From: Opitutales bacterium
GTDB lineage: Bacteria; Verrucomicrobiota; Verrucomicrobiia; Opitutales; UBA953
Assembly (NCBI GenBank): GCA_030725715.1
Contig: JANRFG010000013.1
Coordinates: forward strand, 1 to 64,000
DNA: 64,000 nt
Direction: 5' to 3'
Shown here: positions 8,176-17,036 of the stretch, piece after piece
Layout of the letters: the number at the start of each line of letters is the position of its first letter
How positions within the stretch are numbered: position 1 is the first letter of the stretch
Program-made: the position numbers and the translations under genes
Notes under the pieces: model-generated
Database searches by the model: none
What the model was told of the DNA's origin: nothing
What the model saw: the letters and a program-made list of their open reading frames with translations, nothing else

Positions 8176-8859
8176 TCACTTCGACAGGTCCAGAATCTCG
8201 GCCTCGAGCGCGATCGTCCGTCCGCCGGCGCCGCCGAGGAGCGTCTTTGCGCCGGGCTTCACCGTGATCGTCGTGTTCGTGCGCGAGACCGCGACCTGCG
8301 GAGCAGGGGCGTCCACGATGACCGCCTTGTGCAGGACGAGTTCGACCGACTGACCGAGGCGGGAGAGCGTGAGCGCCTCGCGTTTCTCGTCATAGGACTT
8401 GAGCGTCCAGCCATCGATGCGACGGCCCAGCGGGACCCACTGGCGCTTACCAGCGGCATCTTCGATCGAGAACAGCTTGTCCTTGGTCAGCACGCCATGG
8501 AAGAACGGCAGGTTGCTCTTGGCGCGGGCGGGAGCGGCCGGGGCGGCAGGCGTCACCGCCGGGAACGGGGCCGGTGCCGGCGGGGCCTCGCGGGACTCCG
8601 CGACCGCTTCAAGCGTGAGAGTACCGTCCTTGTTGACCTTCGGGGTGACCGTGAAGACCACGCCCTCCTCGGCTGAGCCCACGCGGATGGTCGTCTGCTT
8701 GCCGTCGACCGTGATCACCGTCGGTTCGGCGTAGACCTCCGGCTTACCGTCCTTGTCCGGGCGCATGAACGTGGCCTTCACCTTCAGGTGGGTCGGCACG
8801 GCGTCATCGGCCGCGAAGGCCGTGGAGACCAGCAGGACGGCGAGCAAGGAGCGGAGCAT
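8176..8859 (-). CDS. Secreted protein with secretin-like and PilP/GspC-HR-like beta motifs (paralogue A)
   Basis: Signal peptide; EPTVITVDGKQTTIRVG...GVVFTVTPKVNKDGTLTLEAV, then LFSIEDAAGKRQWVPLGRRIDGWTLKSYDEKREALTLSRLGQSVELVLHK. Confidence 0.65.
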   Translation of the reverse strand: MLRSLLAVLLVSTAFAADDAVPTHLKVKATFMRPDKDGKPEVYAEPTVITVDGKQTTIRVGSAEEGVVFTVTPKVNKDGTLTLEAVAESREAPPAPAPFPAVTPAAPAAPARAKSNLPFFHGVLTKDKLFSIEDAAGKRQWVPLGRRIDGWTLKSYDEKREALTLSRLGQSVELVLHKAVIVDAPAPQVAVSRTNTTITVKPGAKTLLGGAGGRTIALEAEILDLSK

Positions 8860-8862
8860 GGC

Positions 8863-9606
8863 TTAGCGGGCGACCGGTGCGGCCACCGGCGTGGCGGAGA
8901 CGATGCCGCTGACGGAAAGTTCGAGGCCGCCGACGCCGGGGACCTTGGCGATCTCACCGGGGCGGACCGTCACGACCGTGCTGAGTTCGCTGGCCGAGGC
9001 TTCGATGGAGGACTTGTAGAGATGCAGTTCCTGCTGGGTCGCGCCCTGCGAGACCGTGAGGACGTTGGTCTCGACGTCGAAGGCCTCGAGTTTCCAACCT
9101 TCGACGGTCGCACCGAGCTTGTACCAGCGGCGGGCGCTGCGGCTGTCCTGGATGGAGAACAGCCCTTCCTTCGCGAGCACCGAGTAGAAGACCAGCGTGC
9201 CGTCATGGTCCTTGGATTCGCGCTTACGCTCGCGCTTGGCGTCCTTGGGGTCGACGACCTCCGGCTTGTGGCTGATCGAGACGCGGACCGAGATGCTGAG
9301 CATGCCGTCGGGCTGGACGGTCGGGGAGATCACCAGTTCCATCGAGGTCTCCGGCTTGCCCTTCGGGTCCTTGGGGTCCGGCTTGCCGGCGACCGAGACG
9401 CGGGCCTCGGAACCCGAGATCACGGAGACGGACGGGAAACTCATCAGGTCGGACTTGCCGGTCTTCGGGTCGATGTGCGAGACCGTGCCGCGGACCGTCA
9501 CGGTAGGCGGCGGGGCGGGCGGAGCCGGCGTCGCGGCAGCCAGGCCAAGGGACGTCAGGACGCCGAGCGCGAGCAGGAGGAAGCGGGGGGCCATGGGGAT
9601 GGGCAT
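8863..9606 (-). CDS. Secreted protein, paralogue B of 8176..8859
   Basis: Signal peptide; FPSVSVISGSEARVSVAG...MELVISPTVQPDGMLSISVRV, then LFSIQDSRSARRWYKLGATVEGWKLEAFDVETNVLTVSQGATQQELHLYK. Start uncertain (ORF opens at 9630). Confidence 0.65.
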   Translation of the reverse strand: MPIPMAPRFLLLALGVLTSLGLAAATPAPPAPPPTVTVRGTVSHIDPKTGKSDLMSFPSVSVISGSEARVSVAGKPDPKDPKGKPETSMELVISPTVQPDGMLSISVRVSISHKPEVVDPKDAKRERKRESKDHDGTLVFYSVLAKEGLFSIQDSRSARRWYKLGATVEGWKLEAFDVETNVLTVSQGATQQELHLYKSSIEASASELSTVVTVRPGEIAKVPGVGGLELSVSGIVSATPVAAPVAR

Positions 9607-9669
9607 GGTTCTATTTCCTTTATACCCCATCGCGAGGTAAAAGGTTGCATCCCGCGGCCCAGAAAGGCT

Positions 9670-12053: not shown

Positions 12054-13202
12054 TCAGTAGACGTCGCGCTGGTAGCGGCCGTCCTTCTTGAACTGCTTCA
12101 CCCAATCCACGGCGGCCTCGGGCGTCATGCCGCCCTGCTCGGCCACGATGGCGTGCAGCGCGGCGTCGACGTCCTTGGCCATGCGCTTGGCGTCGCCGCA
12201 GACGTAGAAGTACGCGCCCTGCTGGATCCACTTCCAGAGCTCGGCGGCGTTCTCGCGCATGCGGTCCTGGACGTAGACCTTGGCGGCCTGGTCGCGGGAG
12301 AAAGCCGTGTCGAGGCGCGTGAGCACGCCCGACTTCTGATACTCCGCCCACTCGTCGGCGTAGAGGAAGTCGTGGTCCTTGCGCTGGTCGCCGAAGAAGA
12401 GCCAGTTCGGGCCCTTGGCGCCGCGGGTGGCGCGGTCCATGACGAAGCTGCGGAACGGCGCGACGCCGGTGCCGGGGCCGACCATGATGACCGGGAGACT
12501 ATCGTCGGCCGGCAGGCCGAAGTGCGAATCCGCCACGAAGACCGGAAGGTCGGCTTCGTTCATCCGGGCGCGGTCGGCAAGGTAGCTGGAGCAGACGCCT
12601 TCGCGCGGGCGGCCGTTGGTCTCGTAACGCACGACGGCCACGGTGAGGTGGATCTCCTGCGGATACTTCGACGGCGCGGACGAGATCGAGTACAGGCGCG
12701 GCATCAGCTTGCGCATCAGCTCGATGACTTCCTGAGCGGACGGGCGGGCGGACGGGTGCTCGAGGAAGAGGTCGAGGAATTCGCGCTGTTCCATCCAGGC
12801 CTTCTTCTTCTCCGGGTCGGCTTCGCCGATGGCGGCGGCGAGGCGGGCCTGGTCGGCGGCGTCGGTCGCGCGGTCGTGGAGGAGCTGGGCGAACTTGTAG
12901 GTCGGCCCGTTGAGGGCGAGGCGGGTCGAAAGCGCCTGGCGGAGCGAGATCGGGGCGGTGTCCTTCGGGATGGTCACCTGCTCGTCGCCCGTGAAACCGG
13001 CGGCCTGGAGCAAGGCGTCCACAGATTTAGGGTTGTTGGTCGGGAAGACGCCGAGGCTGTCGCCGCACTTGTAGGTCAGGCCGCTGCCGGCGAGGGAGAC
13101 CGAGAAATGCTGGGTGTCCTTCTGGCTGGCCGGGGAGCTCAGGCGACGGCGGTCGACGAGGCGGGCCGGGAACGGATTGTTCTTGTCGTAAGGAGCGGAC
13201 AT
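12054..13202 (-). CDS. Sulfite reductase flavoprotein-like (CysJ-type FAD/NADPH domains without a flavodoxin domain)
   Basis: YKCGDSLGVFPTN, RLYSISSAP, GVCSSYLADR, GPGTGVAPFRSFV, WLFFGDQRKDHDFLYADEW, YVCGDAKRMAKDVDAAL. Confidence 0.9.
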   Translation of the reverse strand: MSAPYDKNNPFPARLVDRRRLSSPASQKDTQHFSVSLAGSGLTYKCGDSLGVFPTNNPKSVDALLQAAGFTGDEQVTIPKDTAPISLRQALSTRLALNGPTYKFAQLLHDRATDAADQARLAAAIGEADPEKKKAWMEQREFLDLFLEHPSARPSAQEVIELMRKLMPRLYSISSAPSKYPQEIHLTVAVVRYETNGRPREGVCSSYLADRARMNEADLPVFVADSHFGLPADDSLPVIMVGPGTGVAPFRSFVMDRATRGAKGPNWLFFGDQRKDHDFLYADEWAEYQKSGVLTRLDTAFSRDQAAKVYVQDRMRENAAELWKWIQQGAYFYVCGDAKRMAKDVDAALHAIVAEQGGMTPEAAVDWVKQFKKDGRYQRDVY

Positions 13203-13205
13203 GAA

Positions 13206-13235
13206 AGTACCCCGCAGGATGCCTAGCGGGGTACT
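13206..13235 (-). promoter_or_regulatory. Perfect 10-bp stem hairpin just upstream of the 13202 start codon
   Basis: AGTACCCCGC-(10 nt)-GCGGGGTACT read directly; ends 3 nt before ATG on the minus strand. Confidence 0.6.
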
Positions 13236-13261
13236 GATGCAAACCTCTTTTGGAGGCGGGC

Positions 13262-13951
13262 TTACTTCCAGACCTTCACCCAGTCGACGTCGACGTCGTC
13301 CGGGAGGCTTTTGACGACCAGCCTCGGACGGTCCTGCTCTTCGATGCGGTGGGTCAAGGCCAGCGACATCGGCCGGACGAATTCCTTGCGCTCGAGCTTA
13401 TGGACGGCCTTGCCGTCCATGTACCAGGTGAAGCCCTTCTCGGTCCAAAGGATGCCGTAGGTATGGAACTTCTTGGAAAGGTTCGTGAACTTGCCGACCG
13501 GCTTGTCGGGGCGGAAATCCTGGATCACGGACTCCATGACGCCGCGAGCCCAGGGGCTGACACGTTCCTTGCCGGTGCCATGGAAGGAAGCGGTGATGCT
13601 CGGCGGGGTCTTCTCGTCGTCGGTGATGATGCGGAACGTCCCGGCATGGCCGTCGCCGGCGTTCATCCGCATGGAAGCCTCGAAGTAGCCGAACTGCTGG
13701 CTGAACTTGCCGCGTGTGGTGAGCACGTTCTTCTGGATCATGTCGTCCTTGACCTTGAGGCCGATCCGCAGGGCGCCGCCCTTGCCGGACTTGACGAAGG
13801 TGAACACCTCGCGTGCGCCGATCACGTTCCACTTGGTCTCGTCGATCTTGCCGGCGTCGAAATCGTCGGAGAAGACGAGCTTCTTGCCCAGGGAAGGATC
13901 GGCGGCGAAGACCGTCGCACCGACCAGGAAGAGGAGAAAGGTGAGGCGCAT
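13262..13951 (-). CDS. Secreted GH16-fold (ConA-like lectin/glucanase) protein, catalytic motif absent
   Basis: Signal peptide; LVFSDDFDAGKIDETKWNV, FGYFEASMRM, YGILWTEKGFTWYMDGKAVHKL, DVDWVKVWK. Segment where EIDxxE is expected reads PPSITASFHG. Confidence 0.8.
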   Translation of the reverse strand: MRLTFLLFLVGATVFAADPSLGKKLVFSDDFDAGKIDETKWNVIGAREVFTFVKSGKGGALRIGLKVKDDMIQKNVLTTRGKFSQQFGYFEASMRMNAGDGHAGTFRIITDDEKTPPSITASFHGTGKERVSPWARGVMESVIQDFRPDKPVGKFTNLSKKFHTYGILWTEKGFTWYMDGKAVHKLERKEFVRPMSLALTHRIEEQDRPRLVVKSLPDDVDVDWVKVWK

Positions 13952-13956
13952 GGCGA

Positions 13957-14649
13957 TTATTTCCAGACCTTGACCCAGTCGATGTCGACGTCGTCCGGCA
14001 GTTCCTTGAGCACGAGCTTGGGGCGCTCCCATTCACCGATCCGGTGGGTGAACTGCAGGGTCATGGGCGCGGTGATGGCGATGCGATCCGCCTTGTGGAT
14101 CTGCTTGCCGTTCACGAACCAAGCGAAGCCCTTCTCGGTCCAGAGGATGCCGTAGGTGTTGAACTTCTTGGACGGCTCGCCGCCCTTGAGGATCTTCTTG
14201 CCCGAGTTTTCGGAGCGGAGGTCATGCTGGCCCTTGTCATCGAGGTAACGCGCCCAAGGGGCGAGGTAGTCGTCGCCCGTGCCTTCCCACAGCGCGAGGA
14301 TGTAGGGGACGACCTTGTCGTCCTTGCCGCGGATGGACATGTTGCCGGTGTGGCCGGGATTGGCGTTCATGCGGATGGAGGCCTCGAAGTAGCCGCGGAC
14401 CTGCTCGTACTTGCTACGGATGCCGTTGGTCTGGATCATGTCGTCTCGCTTCATCAGCGTGATGCGGAGGGCCTTCGACTTGCCGACCGTGACGAAGGAC
14501 ATCGCCGTGGGCTCACCATAGGTGGACCACTTCGCCGCATCGAGGGCGGGGCCGTCGAACTCATCGGAGAACGCCAGCTTCATGTTCGAAGCCGGGTTGA
14601 CGGCGCTCAGGGTGGCCGTCAGGGCGAGGAGGCTGAGGAGTTGCTTCAT
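13957..14649 (-). CDS. Secreted GH16-fold protein, catalytic motif absent
   Basis: LAFSDEFDGPALDAAKWSTYG, RGYFEASIRMN, YGILWTEKGFAWFVNGKQIHK, DIDWVKVWK; motif segment reads VPYILALWEG. Confidence 0.8.
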   Translation of the reverse strand: MKQLLSLLALTATLSAVNPASNMKLAFSDEFDGPALDAAKWSTYGEPTAMSFVTVGKSKALRITLMKRDDMIQTNGIRSKYEQVRGYFEASIRMNANPGHTGNMSIRGKDDKVVPYILALWEGTGDDYLAPWARYLDDKGQHDLRSENSGKKILKGGEPSKKFNTYGILWTEKGFAWFVNGKQIHKADRIAITAPMTLQFTHRIGEWERPKLVLKELPDDVDIDWVKVWK

Positions 14650-14677
14650 GGGGGTGGGTGGCGAAAAGGAGTGAAAC

Positions 14678-15376
14678 TCAGGGAAGCTTGAAGACCTTGA
14701 CCCAGTCGACCTGCATCGGTTCGGGGCCCAGCTTCGGGTTCATGAAATCCTTGAGAAGGCCGCCTTCCGGGAGGTTCTGGTAGAACTCCAGGTACATCGG
14801 CGCCTTGGGAATCGGGCGGGACAGCTTGTGGACTTGCCGGCCTTCGACGTACCAGATGTACGAGGTGGCGTTCCACCGCAGGCCGTAAGTCAGGAACTTC
14901 TTGTAGGACTTGCCTCCGTCCATCGCGATGACCTTCTCCTTCGGGACCAGACGGTGGGCGCCGGAATCGTCGACGATATTGAGGTTGGGCTCGATGCGGT
15001 CGGCGCCGGTGAAGACGAACGAAAGCGAGGCCGAGGGCACGATCTCCATCTTCTCGTTGCGGATACCGTAGACGGCCCAGCCGCGGTTCTTAGACTGCAC
15101 GGCGCGGATCGAAGCCTCAAAGTAACCCTGGCCATGGGTGAACTTCCTGGAAGTGTGGGCGTTGCTGCCGTTCCAGAAGCCCGCCTTGTCCTTGGGGGTG
15201 ATCTCGAGCTGGAGCTTGCCGTCGACCACGCGGGCCTGACCGCCGACGTTCCAGTTCTTCTTCAGATCATAGTCCTTGGCGTCGAAGTTATCCTCCCAGA
15301 CCGGCTTCAGGCCGGTATTGGGAGCGGCGCCCAACGACAGGGCGGCCAGCAGGGAGAAAAGCGTAAGGGCTTTCAT
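14678..15376 (-). CDS. Secreted GH16-fold protein, catalytic motif absent
   Basis: LKPVWEDNFDAKDYDLKKNWNV, QGYFEASIRAV, YGLRWNATSYIWYVEGRQVHKL, QVDWVKVFKLP; motif segment reads VPSASLSFVFTG. Start chosen at MKALTLFSLL. Confidence 0.78.
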   Translation of the reverse strand: MKALTLFSLLAALSLGAAPNTGLKPVWEDNFDAKDYDLKKNWNVGGQARVVDGKLQLEITPKDKAGFWNGSNAHTSRKFTHGQGYFEASIRAVQSKNRGWAVYGIRNEKMEIVPSASLSFVFTGADRIEPNLNIVDDSGAHRLVPKEKVIAMDGGKSYKKFLTYGLRWNATSYIWYVEGRQVHKLSRPIPKAPMYLEFYQNLPEGGLLKDFMNPKLGPEPMQVDWVKVFKLP

Positions 15377-15432
15377 GAAAGGGGTATGATTGAAGTAAAT
15401 CCGGTGTCCGGGGGGAAGCAAGCCCAGGCGGG

Positions 15433-16137
15433 TCACTGGTAGACCTTCACCCAGTCCACACGCATCGGCTCCGGGCCCATCTTGGGGTCCTTGAAGCTCT
15501 TGAGCAGGCCGGCTTCCGGAAGGCGATTATGGCTCAACCCGATGTACATCGGCTTGGGGGTGGCCGGGATATTGTACGAGATGCGGATGGTGTAGGCCAA
15601 GCGGCCGTCCACATACCAGCGATAGTCGTTCGGACCCCACTGGAAACCGAAACGGTGGAATTTCTTGGAGTAGGAATCATCCCTCGGGATCGGATTTTCC
15701 TTCGGGTTGAGGCCGCGCCCTCGCTCCTCGTTCCGCACATACAAGCCCAGGCTGACGGTATTGCCGCCGCTGTTGCTGAAACCCATGCCGGCGGAGGGCG
15801 GACGGTCGTCTTGATTACGGATGCCGAAGCCGCAGCCATGGCCGCCGGTCTGCACGAACATGATGGAGGCTTCGATGAAGCCGGCCTTGGAGGCGTATTT
15901 GCCCCGCGTGTCGACGTTGGAACCGCGCCAGAACATGGGCTTGGAGCCGGGCGTGATCTCCAGCGAAAGCTGACCGTCGACGATGCGCACGCCATCGGCG
16001 TTGCCGATGTTCCACTTCTTCTTGTCGATCTCCTTGTCGTTGAACTCGTCGGACCAGACCAGCCTGAGGCTGGACTCGGGACCGGCCCAGAGAGAGGTCA
16101 GACAGAGGAACAGGGCGAGCAGGCGCGAGGTGTGCAC
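15433..16137 (-). CDS. Secreted GH16-fold protein, catalytic motif absent
   Basis: LRLVWSDEFNDKEIDKKKWNIG, AGFIEASIMFVQ, FGFQWGPNDYRWYVDGRLAYTI, RVDWVKVYQ; motif segment reads PPSAGMGFSNSG. GTG 16137 gives a clean signal peptide (VHTSRLLALFLCLTSLWAG); ORF extends to TTG 16185. Confidence 0.75.
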   Translation of the reverse strand: MHTSRLLALFLCLTSLWAGPESSLRLVWSDEFNDKEIDKKKWNIGNADGVRIVDGQLSLEITPGSKPMFWRGSNVDTRGKYASKAGFIEASIMFVQTGGHGCGFGIRNQDDRPPSAGMGFSNSGGNTVSLGLYVRNEERGRGLNPKENPIPRDDSYSKKFHRFGFQWGPNDYRWYVDGRLAYTIRISYNIPATPKPMYIGLSHNRLPEAGLLKSFKDPKMGPEPMRVDWVKVYQ

Positions 16138-16208: not shown

Positions 16209-16913
16209 TCAGTTCTCGAAAATCGAGTCGATTTCCTTGCGGGAAAGCGGTCGGCAGTCCCCCAAGGGCATCTTCCGCAGGACCAGCCCGCCGATCTGGA
16301 AACGACGGAGGGTCTTCACATGGAAGCCGAAGATCTCGAAGAGGCGGCGGATCTCGCGTTTACGTCCCTGGTCGAGGTGGACCTCGAGATGGGCGGCGTG
16401 ATCGGGGTGACGGATGACCTTCTTGAAGCGGAGGTGCTCCCCTTCTTCGACGGCGCCCTTGAGCAGTCGAGGCGTGAGGGTCGGGTCGTAGTCGCGGTTG
16501 AGGACGATCTCGTAGCGTTTGATGACGCCGCCCGAGGGGTGCATGACCTTGTTGGCGAGTTCGCCGTCGTTGGTCAGGATGAGCAGGCCTTCCGAATCCT
16601 TGTCGAGACGGCCGACGCAGAAGAGGCGCAGCGAGCCGTATTCCGGCGGGACCATGTCGAAGACCGTCTGGCCGCCATGCGAATCATCGTTGGTGCAGAG
16701 GTAGCCGCGCGGCTTGTTCATCATCAGCACCACCGTACGGCTGAGCGGCTTGATGTGCTGCCCCTGGCAGATGACCGTGTCCACGGAGGGGTCGACGGGC
16801 TGGCCGGTGACCGCCAGCTTCCCGTTGATCATCACGGACCCCGAGGCGACCAGCCGCTCCGCCTCACGACGGGAGCAGACCCCCGCCTGGGCGAGGTACT
16901 TGTGGATACGCAT
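16209..16913 (-). CDS. RsuA/RluB/RluF-family pseudouridine synthase
   Basis: S4 domain MRIHKYLAQAGVCSRREAERLV; MNKPRGYLCTNDD, VGRLDKDSEGLLILTNDGELANKVMHP, GRKREIRRLFEIFG. Confidence 0.93.
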   Translation of the reverse strand: MRIHKYLAQAGVCSRREAERLVASGSVMINGKLAVTGQPVDPSVDTVICQGQHIKPLSRTVVLMMNKPRGYLCTNDDSHGGQTVFDMVPPEYGSLRLFCVGRLDKDSEGLLILTNDGELANKVMHPSGGVIKRYEIVLNRDYDPTLTPRLLKGAVEEGEHLRFKKVIRHPDHAAHLEVHLDQGRKREIRRLFEIFGFHVKTLRRFQIGGLVLRKMPLGDCRPLSRKEIDSIFEN

Positions 16914-17036
16914 GGGTCCTTCGGAAGGCACGCCCTACCCTTTGAGGCTTTTGCCCCGCAGGGCGAGACAATCATCCGACGGAAGGCCGAAGGACTTTTC
17001 TCGCCCTCGGCGGGGTGGTCGTCTTAGTCCTCCCCC

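Follow-up and report, generated by a model that had tools for sequence, protein, structure and literature searches.

Tandemly arranged GH16-fold proteins lacking the canonical catalytic residues form a genus-specific family in Opitutales

Four consecutive genes in a stretch of 64,000 nucleotides from an Opitutales bacterium (assembly GCA_030725715.1, contig JANRFG010000013.1, positions 1 to 64,000), in the following referred to as the window, encode proteins of GH16 fold from which the canonical catalytic set is lost. This loss extends to the family to which they belong, as neither the EXDXXE motif nor the middle acid occurs in any of its 140 members. We consider it reasonably probable that this presumably exported family acts non-catalytically, most likely as glycan-binding proteins, a function which we infer from the fold, the missing residues and conservation.

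Organisation of the array

The array occupies positions 13262-16137 of the window and lies between two genes which are its fixed neighbours:

12054-13202, minus strand: cysJ/fpr-like FAD-NADP reductase (Pfam FAD_binding_1 and NAD_binding_1), fixed downstream neighbour
13262-13951, minus strand: G1, last array gene, 229 aa, ATG start, PF00722 48.6 bits, 'rear' clade
13957-14649, minus strand: G2, 230 aa, ATG start, PF00722 33.5 bits, 'rear' clade
14678-15376, minus strand: G3, 232 aa, ATG start, PF00722 27.8 bits, 'front' clade
15433-16137, minus strand: G4, first array gene, 234 aa, GTG start, PF00722 30.7 bits, 'front' clade
16209-16931, minus strand: rluB-like pseudouridine synthase (Pfam PseudoU_synth_2 and S4), fixed upstream neighbour

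In agreement with the preliminary description, G1 to G4 are consecutive genes on the same strand which lie close together (intergenic gaps of 5, 28 and 56 bp), and the N-terminus of each product, read by eye from the sequence, is a hydrophobic signal-peptide-like stretch. The products (229 to 234 amino acids) consist of this stretch and the GH16 domain alone; they and their family are presumably exported, either to the periplasm or to the cell surface. Their strong divergence, likewise noted before, is reflected in full-length identities to G1 of 49, 36 and 31% for G2, G3 and G4, respectively. A terminator-like stem before G4 scored within chance level.

No polysaccharide-utilisation partner is found beside the array, the neighbours being housekeeping genes. 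In every locus of the genus with enough flanking sequence rluB is followed by one to five array genes and then, in this order, by the cysJ-like gene, fabG, acp and fabF. At window positions 13203-13250, 5' of the cysJ-like gene, an element TTGCAT-N17-CATCCT is present which is kept in many array-bearing genomes and overlaps an inverted repeat (GTACCCCGC / GCGGGGTAC); it may be the cysJ-like gene's own promoter. Also on the minus strand, positions 8863-9630 encode a signal-peptide-like protein of unassigned family, to which a neighbour at about 8179-8860 is ~27% identical; the family of the former is kept beside fabF across the genus.

GH16 fold

Using the gathering score of PF00722 (22 bits) as family cutoff, all four array proteins are recognised as GH16 members with 27.8 to 48.6 bits; the profile also matches all 70 family members scanned. 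The AlphaFold models of G2 and G4 (pLDDT 94.8 and 94.2) display the beta jelly-roll fold of GH16, and the 50 best PDB matches retrieved by Foldseek for each model are without exception GH16 structures, i.e. laminarinases and others, with query-normalised TM scores of up to 0.80. The GH16 fold originally claimed for the array is thus borne out by profile scores, both models and the structural matches alike. GH16 laminarinases and lichenases share with the array proteins the jelly roll, a GYFEAS-like strand and the W..WYVDG and DWVKV landmarks at ~13-21% identity in the Foldseek alignments. They possess, however, E-x-D-x(x)-E and aromatic cleft platforms, both of which are absent from the array family, whose loops are shorter as well.

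A different identity, namely that of a 3-keto-disaccharide hydrolase (PF06439, formerly DUF1080), whose concanavalin-like fold is related to that of GH16, was rejected: PF00722 matches 70 of 70 members and Foldseek places nothing but GH16 structures among the 50 best matches, whereas the PF06439 profile weakly matches six of the 70 and none of G1 to G4 at E values up to 1. PF06439 is expanded in the genome of the window, where 23 matches are present in 1.9 Mb.

Catalytic site

Alignments of the catalytic strand disagree with one another. MAFFT with canonical outgroups sets the EID of the latter on G109-D111, in the numbering of mature G2 whose residue 1 is the Val at window position 14601, and hhalign pairs VPYILALWEGTG with GVEIDI-LETTG. 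We chose the ungapped profile match of the Fibrobacter lichenase 3HR9 (P-W-V-E-V-D-I-E-V-L-G) to P99-G109 of mature G2, in view of the 97% conservation of its Pro and Gly anchors within the family and of the fitting hydrophobic alternation. The strand order in the AlphaFold models likewise puts P99-G109 of G2 on the catalytic strand. In the 3HR9 register the nucleophile Glu falls on residue 102, the Asp on residue 104 and the acid/base Glu on residue 106; these positions read T-S-H in G1, L-L-E in G2, S-S-V in G3 and G-G-S in G4. The earlier statement that the E/D/E triad is missing in all four proteins therefore needs to be refined. It stands insofar as EXDXXE is absent and, in this register, the nucleophile and the middle Asp are lost from each of them, but G2 keeps the acid/base Glu, the corresponding residue of G1 being a His.

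The same picture is obtained for the family as a whole, which comprises G1 to G4 and 136 homologues. EXDXXE is found in 0/140 proteins, and in no member is the full E-D-E set present under any of the three registers (MAFFT, hhalign, 3HR9). An acidic residue occupies position 102 in 11 proteins, position 104 in none and position 106 in 74; five carry acids at both 102 and 106, while at least one of the two catalytic-Glu acids is absent from the other 135. The acid/base position holds Glu in 17 of 17 members of the G2-like group and His in 15 of 16 G1-like proteins. Across the family the tryptophans of the canonical GLWPAFW segment (the GxWPAFW cleft aromatics) are replaced or absent. The polar residues His186, Glu190 and Lys145 are conserved to 85%, 92% and 93%, respectively.

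The genome of the window (1.93 Mb, 37 contigs) contains two other GH16 genes, in L001 and L002, whose motifs are intact and read GEIDIMEF and VEMDILE, respectively. A Paludibacter assembly encodes a 441-aa protein (L131, 4341-5663) with a GH16-like domain which reads HINIFHF where EIDIxEF is expected and which is possibly another GH16 protein without catalytic acids. In a 988-aa protein from the same order (L084, 5700-8663) the C-terminal GH16 domain carries EIDVLD, the acid/base Glu being exchanged for Asp.

Distribution and evolution of the family

Searching 95 related genomes with an alignment of the four proteins revealed strong matches, mostly in tandem runs; of the 55 genus members searched (the window's own genome included), 43 carry them. 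Since so many genomes carry the family, the loss of the motif from the array in the window is not a matter of chance. All 140 near-complete family proteins were extracted from this one genus, probably the freshwater Opitutales genus which GTDB designates UBA953; a table from Lake Erie lists the lineage Opitutales; UBA953; UBA953 (PMC12697132). In a search of 273 genomes of the order, scores of ~1e-63 or better were reached by complete copies from the genus, and matches from outside it were at 3.7e-25 or weaker. The best match outside the genus among 289 genomes of the phylum reaches 1.4e-30, and the four best outsiders of this search have an intact motif (EIDIIE, EIDIME or EIDIVE). A pattern scan through contigs of 84,980 species, which detects only sequences sharing the seed patterns, returned 46 loci resembling those of the genus, together with ten distant loci of 23-29% identity. 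Hence, the search for the array in Verrucomicrobiota did recover the family, restricted to one genus, and no comparable family outside this genus was found in the more than 500 genomes of order and phylum or in the pattern scan. As judged by these sequence comparisons, the family is genus-specific.

The protein tree, some deep nodes of which are weakly supported, groups the copies by position and not by genome, with a 'front' clade containing G4 and G3 and a 'rear' clade containing G2 and G1; species with two genes possess one 'front' and one 'rear' copy. The duplications are therefore old, which confirms the previous view that the array does not result from a recent duplication. As judged from this grouping, the copies are positional orthologues within a family which is probably inherited vertically. 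Simple Nei-Gojobori counts for pairs of close genomes give dN/dS values which mostly lie within 0.05-0.2, and the copies are under purifying selection.

Six genomes (G006, G038, G043, G045, G049 and G053) show an empty site with a gap of 57-69 bp between rluB and the cysJ-like gene. In a tree of four genes, which are linked and leave some nodes weak, these genomes nest within array-bearing lineages beside single-copy genomes; the simplest reading is that the array was gained at the root of the genus and lost later from these genomes. The estimated size of the six genomes is 1.48-1.83 Mb, and genomes with at least two copies are, with one exception, above 2 Mb (Mann-Whitney p = 0.0003, uncorrected for relatedness).

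Discussion

Examples of GH16 proteins without catalytic function have been described before, mostly from animals. Loss of the catalytic residues is reported for roughly 9% of GH16_4, which comprises animal and fungal proteins, for 0.7% of GH16_3 and for 1% of the remaining GH16 proteins (PMC6827312). Insect members that lack the Glu pair are classed as proteins binding glucan (PMC6403176). The beta-glucan recognition proteins of Metazoa (GNBPs), which are GH16_4 relatives with one or both catalytic Glu lost from the GH16 domain, are considered to bind glycans (PMC6827312, PMC6403176). The array family resembles them in that the catalytic Glu pair of its GH16 domain is incomplete (135/140 members lacking at least one acid) but is bacterial, single-domain and arranged in tandem in one to five copies; the additional N-terminal carbohydrate-recognition domain of the animal proteins is absent from G1 to G4. 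While the losses within GH16_4 are not resolved into monophyletic groups, that of the array family is family-wide in one genus. A literature search with little coverage of subscription journals returned no publications that deal with non-catalytic GH16 arrays of bacteria or with GH16 proteins of UBA953, and a conserved bacterial array of this kind appears to be undescribed.

That the GH16 fold can bind without cutting is evident from Glu-to-Ser mutants crystallised with bound oligosaccharides; the title of entry 4BOW names the engineered variant LamA E269S in complex with laminaritriose and laminaritetraose. Since the aromatic glucan platforms are replaced, the cleft of the array proteins may bind something else, and the term 'pseudo-glucanase' should not be taken to imply beta-glucan as the ligand.

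Against glycan binding speak the replaced aromatic platforms, the housekeeping surroundings without a polysaccharide-utilisation partner, and the acids found at the nucleophile position in 11, at the acid/base position in 74 and at both in five of the 140 members. The proteins might be enzymes whose cleft works with another set of catalytic residues, for example the conserved His186, Glu190 or Lys145, or else the retained acid/base Glu together with substrate assistance. Besides the acid/base acid in about half of the members and the five with both Glu positions acidic, the conservation of family-specific polar residues (85-93%) and the strong purifying selection would be in line with such altered catalysis, yet the three cleft positions vary freely by paralogue, and we regard it as unlikely though deserving consideration. 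Envelope or matrix components with a structural or protein-binding role, in which the jelly roll is reused without glycan binding, would suit the lost sugar platforms, the loops shorter than in active GH16 and the housekeeping rather than polysaccharide-utilisation surroundings. The cleft signatures retained within each paralogue group, however, suggest ligands, and we regard such a structural or protein-binding role as quite unlikely.

Although all four proteins pass the GH16 profile, it is very improbable that they are conventional hydrolases whose motif was merely misplaced in the preliminary description, as EXDXXE is absent from all 140 proteins, P99-G109 corresponds to the catalytic strand by the strand order of the models and the ungapped lichenase match yields a middle Asp in no member. 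The loss of the motif could finally point to decaying pseudogenes; we rejected this practically negligible possibility in view of reading frames open in 43 genomes, the low dN/dS (mostly 0.05-0.2) and the positional orthology.

In the explanation which we favour, the retaining-hydrolase mechanism disappeared from the family, most simply in a single event before the genus radiated. Tandem multiplication at one chromosomal site would have come after this loss, with each positional copy keeping its own conserved cleft. The products would serve as periplasmic or surface glycan-binding proteins, i.e. natural lectins, each copy perhaps recognising its own polysaccharide, or polysaccharide end, among those present in lake water. 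Only tentatively do we propose a bacterial glycan-recognition repertoire in which one loss gave rise to a lectin, positional paralogues came to differ in specificity and copies were discarded as genomes shrank. Within this proposal, a functional parallel to the animal glucan-recognition proteins would be a similarly speculative analogy.

If true, the array would represent a clean conversion of an enzyme into a binding protein, kept at a fixed site and under selection throughout a genus common in lakes. Its genes should not be counted as glucanases in surveys of lake carbon cycling, and the empty-site genomes, together with the positional paralogues, make the function testable copy by copy.
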